Of a stretch of 64,000 nucleotides of DNA, positions 10,805 to 27,747 are shown in pieces. Source of the DNA: Pseudophaeobacter flagellatus (GTDB taxonomy: Bacteria; Pseudomonadota; Alphaproteobacteria; Rhodobacterales; Rhodobacteraceae); contig NZ_JAJQRG010000011.1 of NCBI RefSeq assembly GCF_021228235.1, forward strand, positions 62,001-126,000, in the 5' to 3' direction. The notes below the pieces were generated by a model. That model searched no databases, was not told the DNA's origin, and worked only from the letters and a program-made list of their open reading frames with translations. The translations under genes and the position numbers were made by a program. Position 1 is the first letter of the stretch. Each line of letters starts with the position of its first letter.

Positions 10805-10927
10805 GACGGCTCCTTGCTCTTACTCTGCCATGCGTCCTTTTTGGGCGGGACGCTAATTTTTACTCAACTCCCATTTACGCCGGATTTGTAAAAAACGCAA
10901 AACCTATTATTCTATTGAGAAGCGTCC

Positions 10928-10943
10928 TGTCCCCGCAGGGACA
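10928..10943. promoter_or_regulatory. parS-like palindrome 5 (upstream of parA)
   Basis: TGTCCCCGCAGGGACA, with one central mismatch, 124 bases upstream of the parA start. ParB or ParA binding here could also repress the operon. Confidence 0.6.
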
Positions 10944-11090
10944 CAGAGGGTTTCCTGTGCCAAGACCCACTGTTGAACCCCCTTAAAAACAGGGCGTCAC
11001 GGGCCAGATCTCTGCCCGCATTGATTCGCCAGCCCCTTGCGAATCGGGCCACCTTTATCTGCTCTCTTTCTCGGAGGGCGGGATAGATAT

Positions 11091-11170
11091 AGGGGGACAC
11101 AACAAAAGGAACCACGACCGATTGGGGGACATTTTCAACGAAATAGGGGACAGCCAGAACGTCCCCCAAT
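11091..11170. repeat. Iteron-like GGGGACA repeats
   Basis: Three direct copies of G(G)GGGACA start at 11092, 11124 and 11146, and an inverted copy lies at 11161-11168. ATTGGGGGAC at 11121-11130 is exactly inverted as GTCCCCCAAT at 11161-11170. The unit equals one half of the parS-like palindrome. Binding by the replicase is plausible but untested. Confidence 0.55.
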
Positions 11171-11180
11171 ACCATTGATA

Positions 11181-11208
11181 CCAATTTTTTTATCAAAAAA
11201 GGGATTGG
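11181..11208. repeat. AT-rich imperfect inverted repeat
   Basis: CCAATTTTTT and AAAAAAGGGATTGG flank a short TATC centre. It is the most AT-rich stretch near the repeats and could be the duplex-unwinding element of the origin. Confidence 0.35.
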
Positions 11209-11452
11209 GTCAGGAGGGAATTGCACAGAGGCCTTGACAGAATCGTGGCTAAGGACGCAAATCGTGTATATTGAACAAATAGCGTTGAGTTACCTAGAAC
11301 AGGACCCAACGTAATCCGGGAACAACCCGCGGTGTGAGGCAGATATATCCTAAACCGGACGGGCAGGCGAAGCTCTTGTCTACACGGTTTGATCAGATTT
11401 GATCGGTCAGGGGTACACCTGGCCAGGAGTGGTTAGAAAGACGGGTGCCACA

Positions 11453-12136
11453 ATGCAGGCTCAAAAACCCGCCGGGCGAAATGCATCGGCTCTGAAGTAT
11501 GACATACTCACTGCACTGGGCGCCTTTGCCCTGGCGCAGCCCAAAGCGCCGCAGCGTCTTGTGTTGCGCATCATGACCCTGGTCACAGCGCGCTACAATT
11601 GGACCAGAAATGAGCTTGCTGTCGGACAACGCGAAATCGCCCGCCTCTGGAGCGTGGATGAACGGACAGTCAAACGCGAAATGGCCAAGCTGCGGGCGAT
11701 GGGCTGGCTGGTTGTCAAAAAGCAGGGCGTGCGCGGTCGGGTCAGTGAATATGGCCTGGATCTGGATCGCATCTATGAAGACACCCGTGGCAGCTGGGCC
11801 AGTGTTGGTCCCGATTTTGAACACCGCATGCGCGGCACAGAAGCGCCGCCATCAAACGTCGTGCCGCTGCGCACGAGCGAAATTGCCGCCGCACCGGATC
11901 TGAGCAAGGGCGATGAGTGGAGCCTGGTCAAGGCGGTTTTGCATCAGGAAGACCCAGCCATCTATACAGCCTGGATTGATGCGCTAGCGCGTAGCGATCG
12001 GGCAGGGGGGCGCTTAACCCTCACAGCGCCCAGCCGGTTTCATGCCACCTATGTTCTGTCGCATCTGAAACCCCGGTTACTCGCAGCCTGCAGGGATGTG
12101 GACGAACAAATTTCCGACATTGTTATCCTTAGCTAG
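11453..12136 (+). CDS. DnaA-like plasmid replication initiator
   Basis: This 227-residue protein has an N-terminal winged-helix domain (about residues 20-100; QREIARLWSVDERTVKREMA, then MGWLVVKKQGVRGR). Its C-terminal domain (about 150-225) resembles DnaA domain I: W-SLVKAVL, AIYTAWIDAL, LTLTAPSRFHATYVLSHLKPRL. This small two-part layout, beside parAB in opposite orientation, is the signature of the DnaA-like replicase type of Rhodobacterales plasmids; it lacks the AAA+ domain of chromosomal DnaA. ATG 11453 was chosen over an in-frame TTG at 11399 because the conserved region begins soon after. It probably binds the repeats upstream and recruits the host helicase. Confidence 0.85.
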   Translation: MQAQKPAGRNASALKYDILTALGAFALAQPKAPQRLVLRIMTLVTARYNWTRNELAVGQREIARLWSVDERTVKREMAKLRAMGWLVVKKQGVRGRVSEYGLDLDRIYEDTRGSWASVGPDFEHRMRGTEAPPSNVVPLRTSEIAAAPDLSKGDEWSLVKAVLHQEDPAIYTAWIDALARSDRAGGRLTLTAPSRFHATYVLSHLKPRLLAACRDVDEQISDIVILS

Positions 12137-12368: not shown

Positions 12369-13577
12369 ATGAAAACCACGGATGTAACCGCGCGCCTGGC
12401 CTCTTTGGGCGGCGCAAAATGGGATCTTCACCTTGCCGCGCGTGACCGCGTTGCGGCGGGGGCCGATATTGTCGAGATGACCATTGGCGAACCCGATGTG
12501 CCGGTCCCCCAAGAGCTGATGCAGCAGGCGATTGCCTCTATGCAGGCGGGGCGTACCGGGTATTCAGACGGTCGAGGTGAAATCAATCTGCGGCGGGCTC
12601 TGGCTGCCCGCTACACCGCCACCCGTGGGCGGCAATTTGAACCAGACAACTTTCTGTGCTTCCCCGGCACCCAAACAGCCCTGTTCGCGGCCATGAGCGG
12701 AGTTGCCCAGCAGGGCGATGAGGTTCTGGTTGGCGATCCGATGTATGCCACCTATGAAGGTGTTGTGGCCGCCAGCGGTGCCGCGATGGTGCCGGTGCCG
12801 CTGACGCCGGAACACGGGTTTCGCATGCAGGCCGCCGATGTGGCGTCGCGCATCACTCCGCGCACTCGGGCGCTGCTGCTGACCAGCCCGCATAATCCTA
12901 CAGGTGCCATTCTGGACCGGGAAGAGCTGATCGCCCTGTGTGAACTGGCGAAAGAGAATGATTTCTGGATTATTTCCGATGAGGTCTATGAACAGCTGGT
13001 GTTTGAAGGGGCAAAGTTCACTTCACCGCTGTCGCTCCCAGACTATGCCGACCGGGTGATCGCGGTCTCGTCGATTTCCAAATCCCACGCCGCGCCCGGC
13101 TTTCGCAGTGGGTGGTGCGTGGGTTCCAAAGCCTTTTGCGATGCGCTGTTGCCCTATTCCGAGACCATGCTCTTTGGTAACCAGCCCTTTATCGCTGATA
13201 TGACAGAGCTTGCCCTGCAACGTGACTCCTCTGTGGCAGAGGGAATGCGGACACGGTTCAATCGCCGCGCCCAGATCCTGGCTGACCGGGTGCAGGCCGA
13301 AACCGCATTGCAGGTGCACCGCCCCGAGGCGGGCATGTTTGCCATGATCAATGTTGCGGCCACCGGGCTGAGCGGTGATGCCTATGCCTGGGATTTGCTG
13401 GACCAGGGTGTCGCGGTAATGCCGGGCTCTGCCTTTAGTGACAGCCTGACCTCTTGGGTGCGGGTGGCGCTGACTATTGAAGATACGGATTTTGAGCTGG
13501 CCCTGAACCGCATCATTTCTCATGCGCAGGCCAAGACGCAGGGCCAGACAGCATCAGCAACACAGGGGGTCGCATGA
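12369..13577 (+). CDS. PLP-dependent class I aminotransferase, probable arginine:pyruvate transaminase (AruH-like)
   Basis: This 402-residue fold-type I aminotransferase has TSPHNPTGAIL (about residues 174-184), the ISDEVYE segment, the PLP-binding Lys in SISKSHAAPGFRSGW and a C-terminal RVALT. The class transfers an amino group to a keto acid in the cytoplasm. The substrate is inferred from context: the stop overlaps the ATG of a probable 2-ketoarginine decarboxylase, and a dimethylargininase follows. In Pseudomonas the AruH-AruI pair converts arginine to 2-ketoarginine and then 4-guanidinobutyraldehyde. Another basic amino acid, such as a methylated arginine, is equally possible. A palindromic operator lies upstream. 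Confidence 0.75.
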   Translation: MKTTDVTARLASLGGAKWDLHLAARDRVAAGADIVEMTIGEPDVPVPQELMQQAIASMQAGRTGYSDGRGEINLRRALAARYTATRGRQFEPDNFLCFPGTQTALFAAMSGVAQQGDEVLVGDPMYATYEGVVAASGAAMVPVPLTPEHGFRMQAADVASRITPRTRALLLTSPHNPTGAILDREELIALCELAKENDFWIISDEVYEQLVFEGAKFTSPLSLPDYADRVIAVSSISKSHAAPGFRSGWCVGSKAFCDALLPYSETMLFGNQPFIADMTELALQRDSSVAEGMRTRFNRRAQILADRVQAETALQVHRPEAGMFAMINVAATGLSGDAYAWDLLDQGVAVMPGSAFSDSLTSWVRVALTIEDTDFELALNRIISHAQAKTQGQTASATQGVA

Positions 13578-15205
13578 CTGACGCGGCAAAAACCATTGGC
13601 GAGGCGCTGGTGGATGGGTTGAAAGCCCGCGATGTCTCTTGCGTCTTTGGTATCCCCGGCGTGCACACGGTTGAGCTCTATCGCGGATTGGCCGCATCGG
13701 GGCTGCGCCATGTTACACCGCGCCACGAACAGGGCGCGGGCTTCATGGCGGATGGCTATGCGCGGGTCAGCGGCAAACCTGGGGTGGCCTTTGTAATCAC
13801 CGGGCCGGGGCTGACCAATACCTTGACACCGATGGCACAGGCGCGGGCGGATTCGGTGCCGATGCTGGTGGTTTCTGGCGTCAATGCCCAGTCGAGCCTT
13901 GGTAAAGGAATGGGCCATCTGCATGAATTGCCAGATCAGCGGGCCCTGGCGCAGACGGTGGCTCTGACCTCGCAGCATGTCGCCACCGCAGCAGAACTGT
14001 CCCCGGCATTGGATGCGGCCTTTGCGCCGTTTTCAACGGGTCGGCCTGGTCCCACACATGTGCAAATCCCGCTGGATGTGGCAGGTGTTGCGGCGGATGC
14101 TCTGCTGCCGCCAGCGGTGGTGCGGCCCCAGGATATCGAGACCGAACAGCTGCAAGAGGCAGTGCATCTGTTGCAGGCGGCTAAGCAGCCGGTCATTCTG
14201 GTGGGGGGTGGGGCCAAACGCGCAGGCGCGGCACTGGTGGCCCTGGCCGAGCGCCTGGATGCACCGGTGGTACAAACCACAAATGGGCGGGGATTGATGT
14301 TTGCGCATCCCCTTGGCGTTCCAGCCAGCCCCAGCCTGCAATCCGTGCGCGCGTTACTCAAAAGCGCCGATGTGGTCTTGGCCCTGGGAACCGAGTTTGG
14401 CCCTACAGACTATGATATGTATGCCACCGGAGAGTGGCCCGAGATGCGGCAGCTGATCCGGGTGGATCGCTGTGCCGAGCAACTGGGACGCCATGCCAGC
14501 GCGCTGGCGATCGAGGCCGAGGCGGGTGCCTTTGCCGCTGCCCTGTTGCAGGGCCTGCCCCAGGCCTGTTCGGGCCGCGATGGCGCGGCGCGTGCGGCGG
14601 CAACACGCAGCGCCGCAGAACAGGAGATCGGCAGCGAATATCTTGCCCAGGTTGCGGTTCTTTCGGCGATGCGGGATGCGGTCCCAGGCTGTTTGATGGT
14701 GGGAGATTCCACCCAGCCGATCTATGCGGGCAATCTCTACTACGATCACGATCGCGCAGGTGGCTGGTTCAATGCGGCCACAGGCTACGGTGCGCTTGGC
14801 TATGGGATTCCCGCAGCGATTGGCGCCGCGATTGCCGCACCTGACACTCCTGTGATCTGCATTCTGGGCGATGGCGGCGCACAGTTCTCCTTGCCCGAGG
14901 TGATGACGGCGGTGGATGAAAATCTGCCCATCATCTTTGTGATCTGGAACAACCAGGGCTACCGCGAAATCGCCACCTCGATGGAGGCGGTGGGCGTTGA
15001 GGTATTGGGCTGCGATCCAACCCCGCCCGATTTTGCCGCCACGGCCCAGTCTTTTCGGATTGGGCATATTGCTGTCGGCACCGACCCAGCCGAGATTGCT
15101 GCGGCGGTTGCCAACTCGCTGGGCCAGGGGCCCAGCTTTGTCGAAATTACTGCGCCTGTCTTTGCGCCAGCTGAGGATGAAGTCTTTGACCAACCCAAGT
15201 TTTGA
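13574..15205 (+). CDS. aruI: Thiamine-diphosphate decarboxylase, probable 5-guanidino-2-oxopentanoate decarboxylase (AruI-like)
   Basis: This 543-residue protein has the three-domain layout of the acetolactate synthase/benzoylformate decarboxylase family. The N-terminal Pyr domain has FGIPGVHTVELYRGL and the ThDP-activating Glu in TPRHEQGAGFMADGYAR. The centre is a Rossmann domain. The C-terminal PP domain has ILGDGGAQFSLPEV and WNNQGYREI, the Mg-ThDP motif. The sequence closely follows proteins annotated as 2-ketoarginine decarboxylase and the length matches. It overlaps the aminotransferase by 4 bases and the dimethylargininase by about 29 bases, so the three form an operon. The expected product is 4-guanidinobutyraldehyde; no guanidinobutyraldehyde dehydrogenase or guanidinobutyrase is seen nearby. 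Confidence 0.75.
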   Translation: MTDAAKTIGEALVDGLKARDVSCVFGIPGVHTVELYRGLAASGLRHVTPRHEQGAGFMADGYARVSGKPGVAFVITGPGLTNTLTPMAQARADSVPMLVVSGVNAQSSLGKGMGHLHELPDQRALAQTVALTSQHVATAAELSPALDAAFAPFSTGRPGPTHVQIPLDVAGVAADALLPPAVVRPQDIETEQLQEAVHLLQAAKQPVILVGGGAKRAGAALVALAERLDAPVVQTTNGRGLMFAHPLGVPASPSLQSVRALLKSADVVLALGTEFGPTDYDMYATGEWPEMRQLIRVDRCAEQLGRHASALAIEAEAGAFAAALLQGLPQACSGRDGAARAAATRSAAEQEIGSEYLAQVAVLSAMRDAVPGCLMVGDSTQPIYAGNLYYDHDRAGGWFNAATGYGALGYGIPAAIGAAIAAPDTPVICILGDGGAQFSLPEVMTAVDENLPIIFVIWNNQGYREIATSMEAVGVEVLGCDPTPPDFAATAQSFRIGHIAVGTDPAEIAAAVANSLGQGPSFVEITAPVFAPAEDEVFDQPKF

Positions 15206-15968
15206 ATTTTCCCGTGCGATTACCCGCCGCCCCGCCGCCAGCATCACCGAAGGTCTGCGCGCGGCTGATATCGGCACCCCCAGCCTAGAGGGTATGTTGG
15301 CCGCCCATAAAACCTATGTTGCAGCGCTGAAAAGCACTGGTGCCGAGGTGATTGAGCTGGGCCCGCTAGAGGCCTTTCCTGACGCGGTCTTTGTTGAAGA
15401 CACAGCCCTGTGCCTGCCGCAGGGTGCGGTTCTGATGCGTCCGGGCGCGCCGTCACGCATGGGCGAAGTGGCTGAAATGGCACCAACTTTGCGGAGCTGC
15501 TACGCGGATGTCCGCGAAATCAAGGGGCCGGGCCATATCGAAGGCGGTGATATTCTGGTTACCGGGCGTGAAGTGCTGGTGGGGCGGTCGGATCGCACCG
15601 ATGCCGCTGGTGTCGCCGAACTGGCCGAAATCGTTGGCGAATGGGGGCACAGCCTGCGCGAGGTCTTTACCCCGCCCGGTGTGCTGCATTTCAAGACCGA
15701 TTGTTCCTTGATGGACGGCGAGACCATACTGTCCACCAAACGGCTGTCGGCTTCGGGCTGCTTTGAAGGCTATCGCATCCTGGATGTGGCTGAAGGCGAA
15801 GAAGCAGCGGCCAATGCAATCCGCTTCAACAATCTGGTGCTCTGCCCGGCGGGCTTTCCGCGCACGGCGGAAATGCTGGACAAGGCCGGATTTGAGGTAG
15901 TCCAGATTGACAACACAGACTGCGCCAAGCTGGATGGCGGCATGTCCTGCCTGTCACTGCGGTTCTGA
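15177..15968 (+). CDS. ddaH: Dimethylargininase (N(omega),N(omega)-dimethylarginine dimethylaminohydrolase)
   Basis: This 263-residue amidinotransferase-fold protein matches bacterial DDAH: ITRRPAASITEGL at the start, FPDAVFVEDTA (substrate-binding Glu/Asp), GHIEGGDIL, the catalytic His in VLHFKTDCS and the nucleophile Cys in the C-terminal GGMSCLSLRF. DDAH hydrolyses asymmetric methylarginines to citrulline and a methylamine. ATG 15177 is used; a TTG at 15186 has better ribosome-site spacing (GAGG at 15173) and could be the true start. With an arginine-type transaminase and decarboxylase it suggests use of methylated arginines released by protein turnover, for nitrogen or carbon. The stop directly abuts the stop of the convergent rpiR gene. 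Confidence 0.85.
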   Translation: MKSLTNPSFEFSRAITRRPAASITEGLRAADIGTPSLEGMLAAHKTYVAALKSTGAEVIELGPLEAFPDAVFVEDTALCLPQGAVLMRPGAPSRMGEVAEMAPTLRSCYADVREIKGPGHIEGGDILVTGREVLVGRSDRTDAAGVAELAEIVGEWGHSLREVFTPPGVLHFKTDCSLMDGETILSTKRLSASGCFEGYRILDVAEGEEAAANAIRFNNLVLCPAGFPRTAEMLDKAGFEVVQIDNTDCAKLDGGMSCLSLRF

Positions 15969-17003: not shown

Positions 17004-20000
17004 TTAGCCGTTAGCGGCTTGTCGGCTTTGATCGTCATGCTGCGTGATGCTGCCGTCCTCATCCACGGTGATGCGGGCCCCGGTTTCAATCTGGCCCAGC
17101 CCCTTGCAGGCGACCAGCATCAGGATGTGTTTTTCGCGGGCGACAATGGCCATGTGGCTCAGCCAGCCGCCAACCTCGCTCAGCACCGCGCCAGAGCGTT
17201 GCACATAGGGCAGCCAGGCTGGGTTGATCATGCGACAGACCAAGATATCGCCATCCTGAAACCCGTCAAAGCTGGCGGGGTCGGTGCTGGTTTCATCCGC
17301 CAGCCAAAAGGCGCGCCCCGTCACGCGGCCATTGCCGGCAACGCAGGTGCCGCCGAGGGCGCCGACCTCCTGCTCGATCTGCGCGCCGAGCGACAGCAAT
17401 TCACAATCCCGCAGGGTCAGCTGAACCTGTGTCGGTGCTGCGCGTTTGCGCATATCCTCATGGAGTTTTCTGTTCTGCGCCTGCAGATGCAGGGCCTCTG
17501 GTGTGGTCCAATTCCCCTGCTGGATCTCGTCCAGTGTCAGGTAGAAGATCAGATCTCCCAGTCCCGACATCTGCCCCAGCGCCTGGAACGCGCGGCGCAG
17601 CTCTGCCAGAATGCGTAGGGATTCATGCTTGGCCTGTTCCTTGAGATCCTGCAGGCGCAGCGCCAGCGAGATGCTCTCCTTGAGGTGGTTGGGTAACTCG
17701 GCGGGCAGGTGGGCGGATCTGGTGCCGGACGGCATCTGGTTTTCCAGCAGCGGCCAGAGCAGGGCAGGGGCCTCGCTGTAGCGCGGCGAACTGAGCTCGT
17801 AGTCGAACATGGCGCGGTGCCCCATCAGGGCCATGGCCTGATCGCGGGCTGCGACCCCGGTGCAAGAGGCCAGCAAGGCCGACGGCGCATGGGGCAGGTC
17901 TGCCTGCATCAGATGGGTGCGGAGCGCCGGATCACCCGCTGTGGCGGTGCTGGCTTCGCCCATGGTAAAACCGGCCAGGATGTTGATTTTCTCGGCCTCG
18001 ACATAGGCCTCGTCAACAAAGAGATTTTGTAGAACCTGCAGGCTTTGTACCAGTTTTTGCGGTGTAAGCGCGCTGTAATCCACCGCTTGCCATAGCTGCA
18101 GCCTATCGGCCAGATCGGACATCACCTTTGTACGAAAGTGGGCGATCTGCGGTTCTGCCTGACGCCGCAGCTGTTTTGCCTTGGTGGCACTTAGCTTGAG
18201 CGTCATCTGCTGCTTCAGCGCCGCATCGACATAGGTTTTGCCAAAGAGGTTGACCAGATGGCCATCGCCACCTTCGGGCAGACCATAGGGGACGCCCAGG
18301 TCGCGGCAGGCCAGATCGACGCTGCCACCGGGGGCCCAGAGGCGGGTCATCAGCGAAAAGGACAGTGGCGTCGGGCGCGGCAGGACTTCGGACATTTCGT
18401 CCTGTTCCAGGATCACCTGCTCCGGATCGGCACTGCCAAAGCGGTCCAGCAGATCGCGCCATTCGTCCAGGCGGATCTGTTCGACCTTTGGCCCCAGCGC
18501 CAGAGTGGTGATGTCGCGGCTTTGTACGATCTGGAATTGCCCATCGGTATAGGCCCATTCCACATCCTGTGGGCAGCCAAATATACGCTCGATTTCCTGC
18601 CCAAGCGCCAGCAGCGGTGCCAGATCCAGCGTGTCATCTTGATCTGGTACCGCGGCAAGACCAGTACAGCGGCCAAAGCGCAGTGAGACGGGCGTTACCC
18701 GCCCCGATACAAGATCGTCACCGCAGCCGCGCACCCATTCCACCATGGTCATGCCGGGGGCGGTGGGGTCCTGGGTGAACAGCACCCCGGCATAGTCGGC
18801 CTGAACCATCTGCTGTACCAAAATATTGGCCGCATTCTCGCCATTTGTCGCCTGGTCATAGCTGGCGGCACGGTCAGAGGAAAAGCTGGCAATCACCCGG
18901 TCCAGCGCGCGACGCATTGTCTGGGCGGTGACATCCAGTTCGGATTCATAGACGCCGGCAAAGCTCTGATCGGCGCCATCTTCGTTGCTGGCGCTGCTGC
19001 GCACGGCGCAGAGCTTTGTCCCGGCCAGATGCCAGATCTCTTCGGCAAATGCGTCCTTCTGACTGCGGTTCATCCGCTGGTAGGCGGCAATGGCCTCGTG
19101 GCGCAGTACAACGCCCCCCGGCACCGGCAGCCCGGCGTTTTTCAAGAGTGACAGGCGCAGTGCCTTGTTGCCAGCGGTTGCCAGTTCTTCGCTGTAGCCC
19201 AGGGGGACGACCCCGGCGGGCAGCCTGGCCAGGCGCGCCTGATGCGCCCCGCGCGCAATGCCGTGATGCAGGCGCTGATGCAGCCCGGTCACATAGGCGC
19301 GTTGCAGCAACAACAGGCTGAGGCTGAAGCACAGGTAGGCATTGGCGGCAGCACTGAGACCAAAGACCATGGCAAAGAGTACTGGCACGCCGATCAGCAG
19401 CCAAAGCTTGACCTGACGCGCGGTTTTGGCAACGGCCCAGACCAGATAAATCGCGGCCAGAGCGCAAAACATGAGCGGCAACAGCAGCAGCGGATCCGGC
19501 TGCCCCAGATCAGGGATCCAGAGCAGGCTGATCGGTACAAGGCTGCTGGCCTCCCCGGCGGCCGAAACCCCCAGCATCATCACAGGCAAGAACAGCAGCG
19601 CGCTGAGATTGCGCAGCGGCGTCAGGCCCTTTGTGGCATAAAAGGCCTGAATGGCGCGGGCCCGGCGCACAGGATCATCGGCCAGGTCGGCCTTTAGGCG
19701 CTCCAGCTCTTTGGCGCTGGCCTGTGTGGTGATCTGGTCACGCTCTGATTTCAGGGCAACGGGCAGGATCAGGATGCGGGTCAGCAGTGACAGGGCGAAC
19801 AGCCCCAGTAATAAATGGCTGCGCTCATGGCTCCAGATCAGCGCCTGCGCCAGCAGGGAAATCGTTTTTTGCCAATAGGTCGATTGCTGATCGGCCAGCC
19901 AGGCCTGCACATGCGGTTTGGGGGGGGGGGGGATGAAATATTCCCAGGGCAGGGTATAGCGCCCGCGATAATCTATCCCTTGCTGGCTCAGCTCGAGGCC

Positions 20001-21035
20001 AAGTACCTGCCCCATAAAACAGCTTCGCCGATCATAGCAGGCCGCCAGGGTTGGCTTGTCTTGTAGCTGCGCGATACTTTGGCGCAGCTCATCCGTGGTC
20101 AGGGCACGGATCGGGATGTTGATGGCGCCGGGCAGATGGCCGCTGGCGAAATCGCCGGGATAGCGGGTGTCGACGATCTGCAGATCGTCGGTCTCTAGCA
20201 ATGTGGTGAAATCCGCAGTGCTGAGCAGGGTATCCTTGTTGGGATAGTCCGGAATGGCGCGCAGATCGGCCAGGGTTTCAACTGCGGTATCGCTGAAGGG
20301 GCGGCCTTCGACGATCCATTTTTCGATGCCGCCGGCGATGAAACTGCAATCGATGCCCAGCTTGGCCAATTGGGCGCAGGTTTCAGAGCTGCGGTTACCA
20401 TTGTGGCAAAAGACGACTGCTTTTTGTCCGGGCTGTAGCGGGCGCGACTGGAGAAAATCCGGGAAGCGGATATGCGCGGCGCCGGGCAGGGTACCCATGG
20501 CGTTTTCGCCGCTTTCGCGGATGTCAAAAAAGGCAGTGTCGCCTGCCGCGAGCAGCGCTGCGGCCTCTTGGGTGGAAATGGCCAGCGGGTTGTCTGTTTG
20601 CTTGGAAAAGCTGGTCTCTTTAAGGGTATCATCCTTGATTTTGGTGCCGTCAAACTGCGCCGGGCGTACCAAGGTAGCCTGTAAACGCGCCAGATCGGCG
20701 TTTTTCCGCGCAGTATATTGCCAGTAGTTCGCTGCTCCAAACAGGGTCACCAGCGCTACCAGGGTCAGGATCAGCCGCGCCGGATAGCGGGCCGCCTGAC
20801 CTGTGTCTTTGGTTTTGAAACCCAGCTTGGTCGCAACCACAGCCCCAAGCCCGGACATCATGGCGAGCGCAACCGCAAAGACCTGCGACAGGGATGAAAC
20901 TGATCCAATGACCAGTTCTGGCGAGGGAATTGCCTGCACTTTATAGGGGAAGAGGACCAGAATGGCACAGAGTCCAAGTCCGAAGAATAAGCCGGATTTT
21001 GCCGATGAGGCCGGGATATAGCTGGGGAATTTCAC
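17004..21035 (-). CDS. Rhodanese-rhodanese-YidC-like-ATP-grasp-phosphohistidine fusion protein
   Basis: This 1343-residue multidomain membrane protein is built as follows. There are N-terminal membrane helices (about 15-32, 45-65, 87-104). Rhodanese 1 spans about 150-250 with active Cys210 in VFCHNGNRS, and rhodanese 2 about 265-365 with Cys333 in AACYDRRSC. The YidC/Oxa1-like region spans about 390-590: LLTRILILPVALKSERDQ with the groove-type Arg420, SLLWIPDLGQPDPLLLLPLMF, and later helices. A PPDK/PEP-synthase ATP-binding domain lies at about 610-850 (GNKALRLSLLKNAGLPVPGG, AVRSSASNEDGADQSFAGVYES), then a central helical part like rifampin phosphotransferase, and last a swivelling phosphohistidine domain with His1294 in GGWLSHMAIVAREK. 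The PEP/pyruvate TIM barrel is absent. The substrate is unknown. A C13 homopolymer encodes the Pro run between rhodanese 2 and the YidC part. Confidence 0.85.
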   Translation of the reverse strand: MKFPSYIPASSAKSGLFFGLGLCAILVLFPYKVQAIPSPELVIGSVSSLSQVFAVALAMMSGLGAVVATKLGFKTKDTGQAARYPARLILTLVALVTLFGAANYWQYTARKNADLARLQATLVRPAQFDGTKIKDDTLKETSFSKQTDNPLAISTQEAAALLAAGDTAFFDIRESGENAMGTLPGAAHIRFPDFLQSRPLQPGQKAVVFCHNGNRSSETCAQLAKLGIDCSFIAGGIEKWIVEGRPFSDTAVETLADLRAIPDYPNKDTLLSTADFTTLLETDDLQIVDTRYPGDFASGHLPGAINIPIRALTTDELRQSIAQLQDKPTLAACYDRRSCFMGQVLGLELSQQGIDYRGRYTLPWEYFIPPPPKPHVQAWLADQQSTYWQKTISLLAQALIWSHERSHLLLGLFALSLLTRILILPVALKSERDQITTQASAKELERLKADLADDPVRRARAIQAFYATKGLTPLRNLSALLFLPVMMLGVSAAGEASSLVPISLLWIPDLGQPDPLLLLPLMFCALAAIYLVWAVAKTARQVKLWLLIGVPVLFAMVFGLSAAANAYLCFSLSLLLLQRAYVTGLHQRLHHGIARGAHQARLARLPAGVVPLGYSEELATAGNKALRLSLLKNAGLPVPGGVVLRHEAIAAYQRMNRSQKDAFAEEIWHLAGTKLCAVRSSASNEDGADQSFAGVYESELDVTAQTMRRALDRVIASFSSDRAASYDQATNGENAANILVQQMVQADYAGVLFTQDPTAPGMTMVEWVRGCGDDLVSGRVTPVSLRFGRCTGLAAVPDQDDTLDLAPLLALGQEIERIFGCPQDVEWAYTDGQFQIVQSRDITTLALGPKVEQIRLDEWRDLLDRFGSADPEQVILEQDEMSEVLPRPTPLSFSLMTRLWAPGGSVDLACRDLGVPYGLPEGGDGHLVNLFGKTYVDAALKQQMTLKLSATKAKQLRRQAEPQIAHFRTKVMSDLADRLQLWQAVDYSALTPQKLVQSLQVLQNLFVDEAYVEAEKINILAGFTMGEASTATAGDPALRTHLMQADLPHAPSALLASCTGVAARDQAMALMGHRAMFDYELSSPRYSEAPALLWPLLENQMPSGTRSAHLPAELPNHLKESISLALRLQDLKEQAKHESLRILAELRRAFQALGQMSGLGDLIFYLTLDEIQQGNWTTPEALHLQAQNRKLHEDMRKRAAPTQVQLTLRDCELLSLGAQIEQEVGALGGTCVAGNGRVTGRAFWLADETSTDPASFDGFQDGDILVCRMINPAWLPYVQRSGAVLSEVGGWLSHMAIVAREKHILMLVACKGLGQIETGARITVDEDGSITQHDDQSRQAANG
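19920..19932. repeat. 13-base G homopolymer (C13 on the coding strand)
   Basis: Thirteen consecutive G on the + strand encode IPPPP (residues about 368-372) of the fusion protein on the - strand. A change of one base would shift the frame before the YidC and phosphotransferase domains. It may be a slippage (phase-variation) site, or a sequencing-sensitive spot; the current length keeps the frame open. Confidence 0.85.
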
Positions 21036-21252
21036 TGCACGTCCTGTCGCCTATTAAGGGAATATTTAGGATTGTAACGGTTTGGTAAAAATTATCTTAA
21101 GATTGTGAAGTATTGCTTGTTTGTCGTCTAGGGGCTGATTTTTCTCCAATTTTCTATATCAAGGACGTAAAAGTTAACCTTGCAGTCTGCATCGCAGGGT
21201 AGAGTATGGGTGACCAAATAGGATCTGGAATCACGAAGTCGGCCAGGAGGCA

Positions 21253-22173
21253 ATGGTGATGCGGCACGCAGACGAGTATAAACGCCCGGTCATCTTGCGC
21301 GTGTGGGGTGCCTGTCTTGGTATGCATTTGCGCGCTTGGGCGGTTATGTTTTTGTTGGTTGTAGGCCCTCTGGGGGCTGCGCCAACGGTGGCGCGTGCGG
21401 AGATTACCCTGACCTTTGGCACCTATGCCGCCGACAAGCCCACCGAAACGGTTCGCCAGTATCATCCGTTTTTGTCATTCTTGGCGGACCGCCTGACAGA
21501 GCGCCTGGGCAAAACAGTCACCATAAAGATGGTAATCGCCAAGGAATATGAGGAGGGCATTCGCCAACTGACTGCGGGGGAAGTGGATTTCGCTCGTTTT
21601 GGTCCGGCGTCCTATGTCATAGCCAAAGCGATAAACCCGCTGATCCAAATTGTGGCGATGGAATCGAAAGAGGGCCAAAAGCAGTTCAAGGGTGTTATCG
21701 TTGTTCATCGCGATAGCCCGATAGTCTCGCTGCAAGAACTCTCAGGTCAGAGCTTTGCCTTTGGGGATGAGCTGTCAACCATCGGTCGCTATCTGGCCCA
21801 GGCCCAGTTGTTGGAGGCAGGTATCAGCGGTACCGATTTGAAAACTTTCGATTACCTCGGCCGACATGATCTGGTTGGCGTCGCAGTGGGGGCTGGCAAG
21901 TATACCGCTGGGGCACTGAAAGAAAGCACCTTCAAAACCCTTGTGGCCAATGGGGTCGAAATCCGGATTCTGTCGTCGTTTGACAATGTCACCAAACCCT
22001 GGCTGGCCTCGGCTGATCTGGACCCTTCGACCTTGCAGGCCATGCGTGATGTCATGTTTGCGTCGCAGAACGAAGAAATCGTGCGCCGTATTTCCAAGAA
22101 CGGCTTTTTGGTAGGCGAAGATGCGGATTACGATTTGATCCGCGTTGCCATCGACCAAAGCCGCCGGTTCTAG
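21253..22173 (+). CDS. PhnD-like periplasmic phosphate/phosphonate-type binding protein
   Basis: This 306-residue exported protein has a hydrophobic signal segment (about residues 27-48). A type II periplasmic binding fold follows, with PhnD-family features: LTFGTYAADKPTETVRQYHPFLSFLADRL, DFARFGPASYVIA, GVIVVHRDSPI and LSGQSFAFGDELSTIGRYLAQ. No ABC permease or ATPase accompanies it. A hybrid histidine kinase starts 4 bases downstream instead. I infer that it is the ligand-sensing subunit of that kinase, as other periplasmic binding proteins are for TorS- or LuxQ-like kinases. ATG 21253 is used; ATG 21259 is also possible. It diverges from the rhodanese-YidC fusion gene. Confidence 0.82.
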   Translation: MVMRHADEYKRPVILRVWGACLGMHLRAWAVMFLLVVGPLGAAPTVARAEITLTFGTYAADKPTETVRQYHPFLSFLADRLTERLGKTVTIKMVIAKEYEEGIRQLTAGEVDFARFGPASYVIAKAINPLIQIVAMESKEGQKQFKGVIVVHRDSPIVSLQELSGQSFAFGDELSTIGRYLAQAQLLEAGISGTDLKTFDYLGRHDLVGVAVGAGKYTAGALKESTFKTLVANGVEIRILSSFDNVTKPWLASADLDPSTLQAMRDVMFASQNEEIVRRISKNGFLVGEDADYDLIRVAIDQSRRF

Positions 22174-22176
22174 ACC

Positions 22177-24495
22177 GTGAAGCGTAGAGCGATGAAACGC
22201 ACAGGTATCCTGTTTCAAATTATCCTTTCGCTGTCTCTGGCTGCTATTGTGGTGGCCTTGGCGGTTGGCAGCGTGGTGCGGCAATATGAAGGCGAACGCT
22301 TGCGCGAACAGCAGCTCAAGCAAGCGGGACTAACCGTTTCTCTGTTGAGCGGGCTGATGCTGGAATCCATCATTGTCGAGGATGTCCCGGTTCTTGAGAC
22401 CGGATTGCACGAGACCTTGGCACGCGCCAGGAACATCCTGTCGATCCAGATCCTGAATAGTGAGGGAACGTTGATCGCTTCTGCCAGTCGCGATCAAGAG
22501 GGGGTGAACGAGGATTTTGTCACCTATGACCAACCCGTCGAGATGGAAGGCGTTCAGTTTGGCACCATGATGGTGCAGTGGTCGGTGCAAGATGGTTTGG
22601 CCCTAGTTGAACAGAAAGTCCATTATACGATCAAGTGGACGATCCTGGCCATTGGTGTGTTGACTCTGCTGGTCTTGCTCTTGGTGACCCTACTGGCGTT
22701 GCAGCCGCTCAAGATTATTCACCAGCGCATGTCGGGAGCAATTTCCGGGACCCTGCGTCAGACCGATGTGCCCGCCACGGCTCTGCCCTGGTATGCCTCA
22801 CGGGAATTCTGGGCGCTCAATCATTCGGTAGAGGTGCTGGAAGATACCTTTGCGGAACGGGACGAGCGCGAGATTGTGCTTGAACAGGCCTGTGAAACGG
22901 CAGCGATTGCCAGTCAGGCGAAATCTGATTTTCTTGCCAATATGAGCCATGAAATCCGCACACCGATGAATGGTGTGATCGGCATGGCCGAATTGATGCT
23001 GGAAACAGATCTTGATGATGATCAACTGGTCTACGCGGACACCATTGCAAAATCTGGTTCGGCACTTCTGACTATCATCAATGATATTCTCAACTTTTCC
23101 AAGGTTGAGGCAGGCAAGATCGAGCTGGAGCACCGCCCCTTTAACCTGCTGACAAGCGTTGAAGATATCGTCACCCTGCTGGCGCCGAAGGCCAGCCTCA
23201 AGGGGGTCGAAATTGTTCTGCGTTATGATCCCGATCTGCCGGAACTCTATGAAGGTGACGTTGGGCGGCTGCGCCAAGTGATGACCAATGTTATTGGCAA
23301 TGCAGTGAAATTCACCTCGTCTGGCCATGTCTACATTGATGTGACTGGAACAACACTCGGCCGCCCTGGAGAACGCGAACTGTCCATTTCCGTAACGGAT
23401 ACCGGGATTGGCATCCCCAAAGATCGGGTGGATGCGGTGTTCAATGCCTTTGAGCAGGTGGATGGCGGTGCCACGCGCAATTTTGAAGGCACTGGACTGG
23501 GGTTGGCGATCTCGTCCCGTTTGCTGGCGCTAATGCGCGGGCGGATTTTGGTCCAGTCCGAGCTCGGTGTCGGCTCCGTCTTTACGATCCAGGTGCCGCT
23601 GCCACTTGGCGATGGTATTACTGGCCTTGCCGAGAGCCCTCTGCCTTTACAGGGCATGACCGGGATGGTCGTTGATGGGCTTGACGTCAGTTGCACGGTT
23701 CTTGCCGAACGGCTGCGCAGTTGGGGCGGCCAGGCTTTTGAGGCTGACAATACGCTGGAGGCATTGGAGGTCTTATCTGATCTGCAACTAGCTCAGAAAC
23801 AATTGGATTTCATCATTCTGGATGATCAGATGCCAGAGCTGGAAGGGCATAAGCTGGCGCAGCGCATTCGCGCCATTGCTGATTACCGGGAGGTGCCAAT
23901 TGTCATGCTGTCGTCCGTCGAACAAGCCGTGGCACGGAACGCGCGTGAAGGTGGGCAAAGCTGCCAATTCGTGTTGAAGCCGGTGCGCGTGGCACAGTTG
24001 AAACAGGTACTGTGCCGGGTGCTCCACCTGGAGGCCCCCGATGTAATACCTGCCGCACCACAATCCGTTGTGACCGCCCAGCAGCGCCGTATCAAGGTGC
24101 TGGTGGCCGAAGACAATCGGACCAATCGCCTGGTGGTAACCAAGATGCTCAAAGGGGCGGATTTTGATATCAGCCTAGCGGTAAATGGCGCCGAGGCTGT
24201 TGCGCTGTATGAAGAGCATCAGCCCGACATTGTGTTGATGGATATGATGATGCCTGTGATGGACGGCGTCGAAGCGACGATGAAAATCCGCGAGATGGAG
24301 GTCGCACAGCAGATCCCGCCTTGCCGTATCATCGCCTTGACCGCAAATGCGCTAGACTCTCACCGGGAAAAATGCCTGACCGCTGGGATGGATGATTTCC
24401 TGAGCAAGCCCCTGCGGAAAAATGCGCTGCTTGCTGCGATCAACAATTGGGTCGCCACGCCCACGGCGCAGGCCTCCTGTGCCGATGCGAGTTAG
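22177..24495 (+). CDS. Hybrid sensor histidine kinase with two receiver domains
   Basis: This 772-residue membrane kinase has transmembrane helices at about 13-33 and 153-175 enclosing a periplasmic sensor domain of about 120 residues. The HisKA domain has phospho-acceptor His258 in [17 protein letters not shown], and the HATPase domain has N-box [18 protein letters not shown] and [10 protein letters not shown]. There are two receiver domains, with Asp549 (ILDDQMPE) and Asp689 ([11 protein letters not shown]). No Hpt domain is present, so an unlinked Hpt protein or direct output is expected. It directly follows the PhnD-like gene, its presumed periplasmic input. No output regulator is adjacent. 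The stop lies 2 bases from the znuB stop, inside the palindrome TTAGGCCTAA. Confidence 0.9.
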
Positions 24496-24497
24496 GC

Positions 24498-25331
24498 CTA
24501 ATGCCGCCGCGCGCGTGACCCGGTCATCGGCAGTTGCTGCCGGATCATATCCCCCAGGCTGGTCAGCGCAAAAAAGCCCGCCGCCACGCAGACAATTGTC
24601 GGTCCGGTTGGTGTATCAAGCAGAAATGACAGTTGCAGCCCCGCCAGGGCCGAGAGCATGCCAATGACCGCTGCGGCAAAGGCCATGCGTTCAGGGGTGG
24701 CGGCAAAGGGGCGGGCAGCAGCGGCCGGGATCAGCAGCAGGGCTGAAATCAGCAAAACGCCAACCACCTTGATGGCGACGGCAACGACCAAAGCCAGCGC
24801 GATGGTCAGTACCAGCTGTTCACGCTTTGGGTTGAGACCGGCGGCATAGGCCAAATCAGGACTGAGCGTTGCGGTCAACAGCGCCGACCAGCGCGCCCAG
24901 AGCAGCAAGAGCACCAGCCCCGCCCCACCCCAGATCACCATAAGGTCGATGCGGCTGACCGCGAGAATATCGCCAAACAGATAAGCCATGAGATCAATGC
25001 GAATGCCCTGCAAGAACGAGACCGCAACCAGGCCAAAAGCCAGCGAGGAATGGGCCAGAACGCCCAAAAGGGTATCCATGGCAAAGCCCCGCCCGCTGAG
25101 GCTGGAAACGGCTGTCGCCATGAGCAACGAGACGATTAGCACCCCAGCAAAGACCGGCATTTGAAACCCCAGCGCCAAGGCGACCCCCAGGATAGAGGCA
25201 TGGGCCGTGGCATCGCCAAAATAGGCCATGCGCCGCCAGACGACAAAACAGCCCAGGGGGGCCGCCGCGACGGCGACTCCGGTTCCGGCCAGGGCGGCGC
25301 GCAGCAGAAAACTGTCAAAGAGGCTGATCAT
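24498..25331 (-). CDS. znuB: Zinc ABC transporter permease ZnuB
   Basis: This 277-residue integral membrane protein has about eight hydrophobic helices and is of the ABC-3 (manganese/zinc chelate) permease family: LRAALAGTGVAVAAAPLGCFVVWRRMAYFGDATAHASILG near the start, then KVVGVLLISALLLIPAAAARP. It forms the inner-membrane channel for Zn2+ delivered by ZnuA, powered by ZnuC. Its start overlaps the znuC stop by 4 bases, and it is the last gene of a zur-znuC-znuB unit. Specificity for zinc rather than manganese follows from the neighbouring Zur and the His-rich ZnuA. Confidence 0.92.
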   Translation of the reverse strand: MISLFDSFLLRAALAGTGVAVAAAPLGCFVVWRRMAYFGDATAHASILGVALALGFQMPVFAGVLIVSLLMATAVSSLSGRGFAMDTLLGVLAHSSLAFGLVAVSFLQGIRIDLMAYLFGDILAVSRIDLMVIWGGAGLVLLLLWARWSALLTATLSPDLAYAAGLNPKREQLVLTIALALVVAVAIKVVGVLLISALLLIPAAAARPFAATPERMAFAAAVIGMLSALAGLQLSFLLDTPTGPTIVCVAAGFFALTSLGDMIRQQLPMTGSRARRH

Positions 25332-26113
25332 GGGTGGGTCTCACTCGCGGGGGCGGGGCGGGTCTGGTTCGCGGTGTCTTGGCCATGGTCATGGCCGCAG
25401 CTGTGGTCGTGTCGGTGGTTGTGTTCATGCCGGTAGAGTGCCAGCGCGCCTTGGGTACCACTGCCAAAAAGGGCGCGGTATTCCGGTGCCGAGGCCACTT
25501 GTTCGGGTTCGCCCTCGCAGCAAATATGCCCGTTGAGGCAAATCACCCGGTCCGAGGCGGCCATCACCACATGCAATTCGTGGCTGACCATCAGAATAGC
25601 GCAGCCCAAGGTTTCGCGCAGGGTTTCGATCTGTTGGTAAAATCCGGCTGATCCCGGTTGATCCAGCCCCTGGGTGGCCTCATCAAGGATCAAAAGCTGT
25701 GGCGCGCAGAGCAGGGCACGGGCCAGCAGAACCCGCTGGAATTGGCCGCCCGATAGGTTGACCATCTGGCGGCTGGCCAGCTGCCCGGCACCGGCCTGCT
25801 CCAGGGCCGTGGCGGCCTGCTGGTCACTGACCCGCTGCGGCAGGCTGAGAAAGCGGCGCACCGTCATCGGCAGGGTCGGGTCGATATGCAGTTTTTGCGG
25901 CACATAGCCAATGCGCAGGCCGGGGCTGCGGTTGATCTGGCCCTGATCGGGGTGTTGCGCGCCGATAATACTGCGCAGTAGTGTCGATTTTCCCGAGCCG
26001 TTTGGCCCGACGATGGTCACGATTTCACCGGCAGAAATGGCAAAGCTCACATTGGATAGGACGGTATTGCCACCGAAGCGCACCGATAGGTTTTGCAGCG
26101 AAATCAGCGGCAT
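25328..26113 (-). CDS. znuC: Zinc ABC transporter ATPase ZnuC
   Basis: This 261-residue ABC ATPase has Walker A GPNGSGKST, the signature LSGGQFQRV, Walker B LLILDEATQGLD and the switch His in MVSHELH. The C-terminus is His-rich (YRHEHNHRHDHSCGHDHG), as in other zinc ABC ATPases, and may bind or buffer metal. ATG 26113 (MPLISLQNLSVRFGG) was taken as the start; a longer frame reaches 26254 but overlaps zur without homology. The start overlaps the end of zur by 10 bases, so expression is coupled to the regulator. Confidence 0.92.
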   Translation of the reverse strand: MPLISLQNLSVRFGGNTVLSNVSFAISAGEIVTIVGPNGSGKSTLLRSIIGAQHPDQGQINRSPGLRIGYVPQKLHIDPTLPMTVRRFLSLPQRVSDQQAATALEQAGAGQLASRQMVNLSGGQFQRVLLARALLCAPQLLILDEATQGLDQPGSAGFYQQIETLRETLGCAILMVSHELHVVMAASDRVICLNGHICCEGEPEQVASAPEYRALFGSGTQGALALYRHEHNHRHDHSCGHDHGQDTANQTRPAPASETHP

Positions 26114-26592
26114 TCTGGGGCGGTCTCTTGGCACTTGGGGCACAGGCCTTCGGCCTCGACCACGGTGCGTTCGATATGAAAACCGGCCTCTTTTGCAGCC
26201 TGGCCCAATTGGCCCTTGGTAGGAATGGTTTGGGCTTCGGCGACGGCTGTGCACAGGCGGCAGATCATAAAGACCGGGGCGTGGGTTTCGCCGGGATGGG
26301 TGCAGGCAATAAAGGCGTTCAAACGCTCGATCTTATGTGCAAAGCCATTCTTTACCAGAAAATCGAGCGCGCGATAGGCCACGGGCGGCTGCGATCCCAA
26401 CCCTTCTTCGCGCAGACGGTCAAGGATTTCATAGGCACCCAGGGCGCGGTGTTCCTGCAGCAAGATTTCCAGCACGCGTTTGCGCACCGGGGTAAACTGC
26501 AGCCCCTGTGCCCTGCACTGGGCATCAACGGTTGCAATGCAGCTGGCAATGCAGCTGCTGTGATCATGGGTTTCAAACCCGATGGTTTCCAT
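26104..26592 (-). CDS. zur: Zinc uptake regulator Zur (Fur family)
   Basis: This 162-residue Fur-family repressor has an N-terminal winged helix (about residues 25-90: LQFTPVRKRVLEILLQEHRALGAYEILDRL, PPVAYRALDFLVKNGFAHKIE). The dimerisation domain has metal ligands in ACTHPGETHAPVFMICRLC and a C-terminal CPKC, forming the structural Cys4 zinc site. With zinc it represses znu genes. It is the first gene of zur-znuC-znuB and divergent from znuA, with two matching Zur-box-like repeats between them, so it probably controls both directions including itself. Confidence 0.92.
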   Translation of the reverse strand: METIGFETHDHSSCIASCIATVDAQCRAQGLQFTPVRKRVLEILLQEHRALGAYEILDRLREEGLGSQPPVAYRALDFLVKNGFAHKIERLNAFIACTHPGETHAPVFMICRLCTAVAEAQTIPTKGQLGQAAKEAGFHIERTVVEAEGLCPKCQETAPECR

Positions 26593-26644
26593 GGTCGTGC
26601 TCTCCGGTGCGCTGGTCTGGCCAAGGTTGGCGAACTTGGCTCTT

Positions 26645-26663
26645 GATATGTTATGATATGACG
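26645..26663. promoter_or_regulatory. Candidate Zur box 1
   Basis: GATATGTTATGATATGACG, similar to alphaproteobacterial Zur operators with an ATGTTAT core. It repeats 32 bases later in the same orientation, about three helical turns away, in the zur/znuA divergent region. Confidence 0.6.
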
Positions 26664-26676
26664 TTTATCAAGTCGT

Positions 26677-26695
26677 GAGATGTTATAAAATCACA
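26677..26695. promoter_or_regulatory. Candidate Zur box 2
   Basis: GAGATGTTATAAAATCACA is the second copy of the repeat, ending 12 bases before the preferred znuA start. Bound Zur would block the znuA ribosome site or promoter. Confidence 0.6.
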
Positions 26696-26706
26696 TGAGA
26701 GAGTCG

Positions 26707-27747
26707 ATGATAAAACTCAGCCTGACCACAGCCGTTTCCGTCCTTGGGTTTGCCAGTGCAAGCTGGGCAGAGTCACCTCGGGTCGCAACGGATATTGCGC
26801 CAGTTCATGGCTTGGTGGCGCGCGTGATGCAGGACATCGCGATGCCTGATCTGGTGGTTCCTGCGGGTGCCTCGCCGCATAATCATTCCATGCGCCCATC
26901 CGAGGCCATGGCGCTGGCGCAGGCAGATCTGGTGTTCTGGATGGGTGCACCCCTGACGCCTTGGTTGCAGGGTGCCATCACGGAGCTGGCCGACCAGGCG
27001 CGGGTTGTCGAGCTGCTGGAGCATGAGGCCACGATGGTGCTGCCTTTCCGAGAAGGCGTTGGTTTTGAACCGCATAAACATGATCTCGCAGGTACGCAGG
27101 GTAACGATCATGGGCATGACCATGATGAGGACAGCCACGCCGATCATGGCGATCACGACCATGCTGAAGATCACGGGGACCATGGTCATGAAGGGGACCA
27201 TTCCGAGGACCAAGCAGACGTCGGCCACGCGGGCCACGATCATTCCGGCACCGACCCGCATGCCTGGCTCGCGCCTGAGAATGCGCAGGCCTGGCTTGGG
27301 GTGATCGCAGGTGAACTTTCTGCCTTGGACCCCGAAAATGCGGCAGCCTATGCAGCCAATGCCGCTGCGGGGCAGGCTGAGATTCAGGCGGTGGCAGATC
27401 AGATTTCGGCCAACCTAACCGGCGGGGAGTTTGTTGTCTTTCACGATGCCTATCAGTATTTTGAGCAGGGCTTTGACATCCAGGCGGTCGGGGCGATTGC
27501 GCTGAGCGATGCCTCGGATCCCAGCCCGGCGCGGATTGCCGAAATTCAGCAAGTGGTGAAAGACCATGGCGTCACCTGCGTCTTTTCCGAACCGCAGTTC
27601 AATCCGGATCTGGTGGCCACGGTGATGGAGGGCAGTGCCGCCAAAACCGTGGTGATTGATCCCTTGGGTGCAGGGCTGACCCCGGGTGCTGACTTCTACC
27701 CGGCGCTTTTGCAGAAACTTGGGGGTGCCATGGCAGCTTGCCAGTAA
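26707..27747 (+). CDS. znuA: Zinc ABC transporter substrate-binding protein ZnuA
   Basis: This 346-residue periplasmic protein of the cluster A-I family has signal peptide MIKLSLTTAVSVLGFASASWA. The first Zn-ligand His is in GASPHNHSMRPSEA, followed by a long His/Asp-rich loop (about residues 120-178) typical of zinc-specific ZnuA. A second His is in DPHAWLAPENAQ, a third in VVFHDAYQYFEQ, and the C-terminal acidic ligand is in DPLGAGLTPGADFY. ATG 26707 is preferred over 26695, because the earlier ATG overlaps the second Zur box and GAGAG sits before 26707. It is divergent from zur-znuCB. A strong terminator follows. Confidence 0.92.
   Translation: MIKLSLTTAVSVLGFASASWAESPRVATDIAPVHGLVARVMQDIAMPDLVVPAGASPHNHSMRPSEAMALAQADLVFWMGAPLTPWLQGAITELADQARVVELLEHEATMVLPFREGVGFEPHKHDLAGTQGNDHGHDHDEDSHADHGDHDHAEDHGDHGHEGDHSEDQADVGHAGHDHSGTDPHAWLAPENAQAWLGVIAGELSALDPENAAAYAANAAAGQAEIQAVADQISANLTGGEFVVFHDAYQYFEQGFDIQAVGAIALSDASDPSPARIAEIQQVVKDHGVTCVFSEPQFNPDLVATVMEGSAAKTVVIDPLGAGLTPGADFYPALLQKLGGAMAACQ

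Follow-up and report, generated by a model that had tools for sequence, protein, structure and literature searches.

Dikinases of the rifampin phosphotransferase (RPH) type are a large and mostly unexplored group of small-molecule kinases, and RPH itself uses ATP to phosphorylate rifampin, the products being phospho-rifampin, AMP and Pi (PMC4844700). Their swivelling domain is described with the motif T/SxxGGxxxH (PMC12167813). In a different kind of system, the binding protein AioX acts together with the sensor kinase AioS (PMC5908839). A locus of Pseudophaeobacter flagellatus contains parts that resemble both. It lies in a stretch of 64,000 nucleotides (assembly GCF_021228235.1, contig NZ_JAJQRG010000011.1, positions 62,001 to 126,000), the whole of which is termed the window, and centres on one long gene. 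The product of this gene, termed the fusion, joins two rhodanese domains, a YidC/Oxa1-like membrane core and a predicted dikinase; a PhnD-like gene and a hybrid kinase gene run divergently from it (Table 1). The fusion architecture is real and is conserved in some marine Roseobacter bacteria.

The fusion gene and its conservation

The gene occupies positions 17004 to 21035 of the window on the reverse strand. A first reading, made from the letters alone, had described an intact frame of 1343 residues here, with two rhodaneses (Cys210 and Cys333), a YidC-like region keeping the conserved helix arginine, and ATP-binding and swivelling His domains (His1294). These observations are confirmed: the frame is open from a GTG start, without internal stops, and each of four Pfam families exceeds its curated cut-off (PPDK_N, 1.9e-31; Rhodanese, 3.8e-21, in two stretches; PEP-utilizers, 3.6e-15; 60KD_IMP, 6.6e-11). 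Residues C210, C333, R420 and H1294 are invariant in both alignments made, of 14 and 13 rows. In NCBIfam, the top matches are to models named for phosphoenolpyruvate (PEP) synthase (PRK06241 series, 3.8e-49), RedH (8.8e-45) and RPH (2.3e-39), with all rows shown for the fusion far below the model cut-offs. The source genome holds a single full-length copy; two further short matches both fall inside another dikinase gene.

The same architecture recurs across genomes. Eight of the 12 genomes listed for the genus, the source counted, have the fusion. In a family sample of 295 genomes, one per genus, 25 match the full profile at E ≤ 1e-30; nine of these, again including the source, have full-length fusions (1291-2504 bits), and the other 16 match in the dikinase part only (118-142 bits). 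One of the nine (G220) has a TAA as the second codon of the matched stretch; this codon precedes the region in which the gene itself starts, and the gene is therefore intact. A scan of contigs (24 stretches with a pattern match) confirmed 10 loci, from Phaeobacter, Pseudophaeobacter, Tritonibacter, Epibacterium and two uncultured relatives, every one of which encodes a near-full-length fusion. Among plasmid records with a match, 81 of 192 cover at least 80% of the fusion query, and the N-terminal part alone is covered to at least 80% in 82 of 91 (Phaeobacter 59, Leisingera 17, Tritonibacter 3, Parasedimentitalea 2, Ruegeria 1). The usual NCBI name is "PEP/pyruvate-binding domain-containing protein".

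Beyond the family, matches are few. The full profile at E ≤ 1e-30 finds five among 398 genomes of the phylum: the source, two family fusions and two genomes with a split version, described below. The N-terminal profile matches none of 288 genomes of the class besides the source (E ≤ 1e-25), and in a class sample of 376 the dikinase profile (E ≤ 1e-35) finds one fusion and one dikinase of ordinary layout. A library of defence systems gave no match for the fusion. A homologue (PGA1_RS19240) is present in Phaeobacter inhibens DSM 17395, carried on the Phaeobacter 262-kb plasmid. Antibiotic genes are located on the same plasmid (PMC5421792), other genes of which are named in PMC5421792 and PMC5653290; a link between fusion and antibiotic was considered and set aside.

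Amino-acid change is constrained in every region of the fusion. The proportion of nonsynonymous differences (pN) stays below that of synonymous differences (pS) throughout the nine regions, whichever of the six sequence pairs is taken; between the window and three relatives, with a 16-residue linker excluded, pN is 0.07-0.31 and pS 0.47-0.72. Across 13 diverse fusions, mean identity is 0.70 and 0.66 in the rhodaneses, 0.57 each in the ATP-grasp and His domains, 0.53 in the YidC region, 0.49 in the acceptor-type domain and 0.42 in the first 110 residues, and the catalytic residues stay invariant at identities down to 39%.

An artefact of assembly or gene prediction that joined separate genes would also yield such a frame, and the sequence-only reading had itself named separate homologues and an assembly join as what might undo it. 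The first part is borne out in two distant genomes, which have overlapping split genes, a point in favour of an artefact. The second does not: the same fusion occurs in independent genomes and in plasmid records marked complete. An assembly join was rejected on account of the full-length homologues in other Roseobacteraceae genomes and plasmids, and an artefact of either kind is next to inconceivable.

The dikinase half

Judged by its sequence, the cytoplasmic half of the fusion has the RPH layout, in which an ATP-grasp domain with conserved residues and an acceptor-type domain precede a C-terminal swivelling His domain. PEP-utilizers_C, the PEP/pyruvate barrel that marks PEP synthase and pyruvate phosphate dikinase, is absent from the fusion in Pfam at E ≤ 1, in agreement with the earlier claim of a missing barrel. 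The ATP-grasp residues K624, R679, E826, Q838 and R840 are invariant in both the 14-row and the 13-row alignment; we take their catalytic role to be that known from work on RPH and pyruvate phosphate dikinase. In the swivel motif, S1286EVGGWLSH1294, the GG and the histidine are present in 13 of 13 fusions and the first serine in 11, with Cys and Ala in the two divergent ones.

Resemblance to RPH had been noticed for the ATP-binding and His domains, and it extends further. Profile alignment (hhalign) with six RPH-layout dikinases from other Rhodobacteraceae gives a probability of 100 and an E-value of 2.7e-41 over 673 columns (positions 14-730), and the RPH-like part is larger than claimed, with the acceptor region included. 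"RPH-like" is the label used here for these six proteins, two of which were checked against NCBIfam and are collinear with the PRK06241, RedH, PigC and RPH models, several over most of their length. In the same alignment, QDEMSEVLPRPTPLS maps to the start of the acceptor region and GHRxxxDYExxxPRYxE to its later part. Matched directly to an RPH structure, the acceptor stretch falls in order, at a score that is insignificant by itself (i-Evalue 40).

Against solved structures, the RPH-like profile finds RPH best (3.2e-69, versus 6.8e-56 for the PEP synthase structure 8a8e). The profile of the fusion's own dikinase scores 8.7e-55 with 5fbs/5hv2 and 9.5e-54 with 8a8e, and a search with the single fusion sequence prefers 8a8e (5.2e-26 versus 9e-23). 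Entries 5fbs and 5hv1-3 we take to be RPH; the structure file names PEP synthase. The fusion's own preference for RPH over PEP synthase structures is thus weak. For the rifamycin-inactivating phosphotransferase proper, the fusion reaches 135.4 bits, far below the NCBIfam equivalog cut-off of 999.

Among the comparison loci, one (L077, 1619-4932) has an RPH-like dikinase directly 3ʹ of a gene for a UbiA-family prenyltransferase, and similar dikinases occur at other Rhodobacteraceae loci. At a guess, the substrate of the L077 enzyme may be a prenyl compound.

The rhodaneses and the YidC-like core

The order of hydropathic segments in the N-terminal half is a putative signal peptide, two further segments, a soluble part, and YidC-like helices from residue 405. 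The AIPSPEL motif (A35-L41) near the start is invariant in 14 aligned rows. Topology was derived from Kyte-Doolittle hydropathy alone; in the usual orientation of YidC, the rhodaneses lie in the periplasm and the dikinase in the cytoplasm, an arrangement that hydropathy and positive charges fit and that is probably the one adopted.

Rhodanese domain 1, whose best Pfam stretch spans residues 155-241, has the catalytic cysteine loop CHNGNRS, and profiles of this region match GlpE, YgaP and a chain named sulfide dehydrogenase, presumably Sud. Domain 2 has C333 in an atypical loop, and its stretch has alpha/beta elements in an AF2 model. Five cysteines (C210, C220, C230, C333 and C339) are invariant in 15 N-terminal rows. 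The model covers residues 1-602 only and was built from 11 sequences; its mean pLDDT is 67.1 and its pTM 0.40, with the rhodanese and YidC stretches mostly at 70-90. When this model is compared with the PDB by Foldseek, the N-terminal half matches solved YidC and rhodanese folds: E. coli YidC at 5.2e-7, B. halodurans YidC at TMt 0.67-0.70, and single rhodaneses such as YgaP at TMt 0.72-0.76 (for a rhodanese domain that is not specified).

The YidC-like core consists of a cytoplasmic hairpin and about five hydrophobic helices, with the invariant R420 as the basic residue of the first core helix. Its profile matches solved YidC structures at E = 1e-16. It also aligns at 97% probability with the canonical YidC of the source genome, which is encoded elsewhere (G000:C5, 210 bits) and has Lys in place of R420. 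The cut-off of the NCBIfam insertase-domain model yidC_oxa1_cterm is missed, at 38.6 versus 84.3 bits.

Such a core might belong to a specialised insertase, which would insert or fold a dedicated small membrane client while the rhodaneses guard the client's cysteines and the dikinase adjusts or marks the process. The YidC fold and the conserved basic residue favour this, as does the placement of the additions on the sides where YidC generally bears extra parts of its own. Against it, the dikinase replaces the C-terminal tail of canonical YidC, and an inspection of the fusion's neighbours, which was not systematic, turned up no conserved small membrane protein. We also know of no insertase that uses a dikinase (no search having been made), a further point against this explanation, which seems decidedly improbable.

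The partner genes

The sequence-only reading had noted a PhnD-like gene and a hybrid kinase divergent from the fusion, and the pair proves to be a regular companion. Both genes adjoin the fusion in 10 of 10 named loci. At E ≤ 1e-40, a profile of the PhnD-like protein finds 10 of the 295 family genomes, namely the nine fusion carriers and one other (G116). Because the gene is thus present in nine of nine carriers versus one of 286 other genomes (Fisher p = 2.4e-16, shared ancestry ignored), these neighbours belong to the fusion. In one genome (G298, locus L059) the partner genes are adjacent to the fusion but convergent with it rather than divergent; in G147, one contig ends with the fusion and the kinase tail and another with the PhnD-like gene and the kinase front, which fits the same convergent order. 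An AGGAGG stretch upstream of the PhnD-like gene is common to six of six close relatives aligned.

Among solved relatives of the PhnD-like protein, the closest is the phosphite binder PtxB (8.3e-25); ArrX and AioX, which bind arsenic oxyanions, are matched too. Its pocket-type motifs STxG and LGRHD are invariant in 16 rows, with Phe where PtxB has Tyr. A PhnD-like binding protein encoded beside a sensor kinase is the arrangement of AioX-AioS; the arsenic-ligating cysteine of that system is missing from the pocket. The sole cysteine of the window's protein is residue 21, in the leader, so binding of arsenite in the manner of AioX is unlikely.

Pfam shows two receiver stretches in the hybrid kinase, and at E ≤ 1 detects in it neither an Hpt nor a DNA-binding domain. 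Together with the tight co-occurrence, this would suit a signalling device in which the fusion is the output or phosphodonor of the PhnD-hybrid kinase pathway and phosphate passes between His1294 and a receiver domain. That the fusion owns an acceptor-type domain, and that its split relatives are without a PhnD-like match, make such a device very unlikely.

Genes of the zur/znuABC type for zinc uptake occupy window positions 24498-27747, and matches to them lie beside the locus in 10 of 10 named relatives; in P. inhibens, the annotated neighbours are the fusion, the PhnD-like gene (PGA1_RS19235) and the zinc-uptake genes, in the same order as in the window. Zinc uptake was considered as a function and rejected: there is no zur/znu match in 19 kb around L056 and L059, where the PhnD-like gene and the kinase remain.

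Two loci differ in their surroundings. At L058 (G046:C96, 1272-5011), genes that by eye resemble a TAXI-type TRAP transporter adjoin the divergent fusion in place of the sensor pair; at L073 (G116:C28, 742-3938), the PhnD-hybrid kinase pair is found without the fusion alongside.

Table 1. Parts of the fusion and its partner genes, in positions of the window
Feature	Positions	Strand	Basis
Residues 1-110: signal-peptide-like start, AIPSPEL motif, two more hydrophobic segments	20706..21035	-	hydropathy; alignment
Rhodanese domain 1, residues 150-250, loop C210-HNGN-R215-S	20286..20588	-	Pfam, profile, model
Rhodanese domain 2, residues 265-375, atypical loop C333-YDRRS-C339	19911..20243	-	Pfam, invariance, model
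YidC/Oxa1-like membrane core, residues 395-600, R420 in first core helix	19236..19853	-	PF02096, profile, Foldseek
ATP-grasp domain, residues 616-850	18486..19190	-	PPDK_N, invariance
Acceptor-type domain, residues 870-1140, motifs QDEMSEVLPRPTPLS and GHRxxxDYExxxPRYxE	17616..18428	-	hhalign
Swivelling phospho-His domain, residues 1230-1330, S1286-EVGGWLS-H1294	17046..17348	-	PEP-utilizers, H1294 invariance
Intergenic region between the fusion and the PhnD-like gene	21036..21252	.	alignment of close relatives
PhnD-like periplasmic binding protein	21253..22173	+	PF12974, 1.3e-43
Hybrid sensor kinase HisKA-HATPase-REC-REC	22177..24495	+	Pfam

Split relatives

A split version is found in two of 78 genomes searched of one other class of the phylum, which may, as a guess, be Zetaproteobacteria. 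In both, a YidC-like gene of 633-639 codons is followed by a dikinase gene, the two overlapping by 1-4 bases depending on the start codon; in one genome (G436), contig ends cut the dikinase into two pieces. The start of the YidC-like protein is of the same kind as in the fusion, with ALPTPDALISV in place of AIPSPELVIGS; about 340 residues on the periplasmic side follow, and the end is YidC-like. The PF02096 score is 37.4 bits in one of these proteins (cut-off 35) and 24.1 in the other. The split YidC-like protein has no match among plasmids at E ≤ 1e-3, and the genes around the split pair, which by eye are flagellar and others, give no functional hint.

A tree groups the fused and split dikinases on one branch (support 91/94) that excludes eight RPH-like proteins; the program warns that the rows of the split and the RPH-like proteins form long branches, whose joins may be false. 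The YidC-dikinase pair may be the older core, beside which the Roseobacter line has the rhodaneses and an oxyanion-type sensor; the tree leaves undecided whether the split or the fused state came first.

In another reading, the fusion is a tethered enzyme. The YidC fold, its insertase function lost, would then be an anchor near a lipid-soluble substrate, and the rhodaneses and dikinase would work independently and without coupling. The dikinase is indeed a separate protein in the split relatives, a canonical YidC exists separately in the source genome, and the YidC score of the fusion lies under the insertase-domain cut-off. Even in the split relatives, however, the YidC-like core and the basic residue of its first helix are retained; the split genes overlap in both genomes, and the YidC region of the fusion is under constraint. 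A mere tether is on balance rather unlikely.

A candidate function

The reading favoured here, which is tentative, is that the three genes form a Roseobacter membrane system in which a membrane-tethered, small-molecule dikinase of RPH layout is combined with a periplasmic sulfur side and an oxyanion-type sensor. In the cytoplasm, the ATP-grasp domain would use ATP to phosphorylate H1294, and the His domain would swivel to deliver the phosphate to a small molecule held by the acceptor domain. Through the YidC-fold core, with R420, the dikinase would be linked to the two periplasmic rhodaneses, which may carry or sense sulfane sulfur on C210 (perhaps C333/C339). The PhnD-like protein and the hybrid kinase, in their AioX-AioS-like arrangement, would act as an oxyanion sensor and presumably regulate the system through either its activity or its expression. 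Of the possible tasks of the fusion, the likeliest is to phosphorylate a small molecule at the membrane at the expense of ATP. The interpretation in the sequence-only reading is partly supported, namely for the domains, the residues and the likeness to RPH; the further suggestion made there, that sulfur or redox state at the membrane could be coupled to phosphorylation, is an inference, as is any part of the sulfur side in the work.

Several observations weigh against this three-gene system. PEP synthase 8a8e and the RPH structures score about equally, and the best NCBIfam models are named for PEP synthase; the assignment to the RPH type accordingly depends on the order of the domains, on the lack of a barrel and on the bridging profiles. 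AF2 models residues 1-144 poorly, mostly at low confidence, and with its pTM of 0.40 the model is uninformative on how the domains are arranged. Tandem rhodaneses match it domain by domain only, at a root-mean-square deviation of 14-17, so the relative placement of the two rhodanese domains is unsupported. The link between fusion and sensor also has exceptions. In G046, the fusion is flanked by other genes, while a PhnD fragment and the kinase begin another contig; G116 has the PhnD-kinase pair and no fusion match at E ≤ 1e-30. Unlike in AioX-AioS, the annotation of P. inhibens shows no separate gene for a response regulator next to the kinase. Finally, rhodanese is undetectable in the periplasmic part of the split protein (hhalign probability 3.8), and a PhnD-like match at E ≤ 1e-5 is absent from both split genomes (completeness 93% and 85%). 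The module can therefore do without its sulfur and sensor parts, and sulfur does not belong to it universally.

A bolder version makes the fusion a transmembrane coupling machine, in which the YidC-fold core is a conduit or transducer rather than an insertase and links periplasmic sulfur chemistry to ATP-driven phosphorylation, in the manner of group translocation and under the oxyanion sensor, with the YidC-dikinase pair as the older core. This is unlikely. Since a homologue is present in P. inhibens DSM 17395, which we take to be genetically tractable, direct tests could be made of the acceptor, of what the sensor binds and of what the YidC fold does.

Other features of the window

Positions 8358-12136 hold genes that resemble ParA, ParB (by eye) and DnaA_N (23.6 bits, slightly short of the cut-off of 24.6), so the window probably belongs to a plasmid or chromid. 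On the forward strand, positions 12369-15968 hold genes for an aminotransferase, a thiamine pyrophosphate (TPP) enzyme and a member of the arginine-deiminase family, some or all of which recur close to the fusion in several relatives; the TPP enzyme has a counterpart in P. inhibens that is annotated as 5-guanidino-2-oxopentanoate decarboxylase. A caspase-domain protein (Peptidase_C14, 3.5e-40) is encoded on the reverse strand at 5450-7009, and the CSSCH within its C-terminal part is, by eye, a haem-type CxxCH motif.

Comparison with known systems

The sequence-only reading knew of no characterised protein with this combination, and the open-access literature agrees, as searches on the domain combination, the family names and the Phaeobacter gene found no description of the fusion. 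Its parts have well-known counterparts, from each of which it departs. With AioX-AioS, ArrX and PtxB, the locus shares a PhnD-like binding protein encoded next to a sensor kinase, while the kinase is a hybrid, Phe replaces the PtxB Tyr, and an adjacent annotated response regulator is missing in P. inhibens. Like GlpE, YgaP and Sud, rhodanese 1 has a CX4R loop; unlike them, the rhodaneses form a tandem in which five cysteines are invariant and the second loop is atypical. The core fold and the basic residue of the first core helix are those of the YidC/Oxa1 insertases; however, the core runs into the dikinase, and the rhodaneses stand at the place of the periplasmic domain of YidC. PEP synthase and pyruvate phosphate dikinase share the ATP-grasp and His families with the fusion and provide many of its best-named matches, but the fusion has no PEP/pyruvate barrel and its His domain is C-terminal. 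The domain order and the T/SxxGGxxxH motif are those of RPH and the RPH-type dikinases (HpeHI, CreHI, phenylphosphate synthase and PigC/RedH), from which the fusion differs in its diverged acceptor region and in being joined to a YidC-like core and rhodaneses. If the proposed function is correct, it would represent a membrane-built branch of the RPH-type dikinases, with a YidC-fold core in a setting new to the open-access literature searched.

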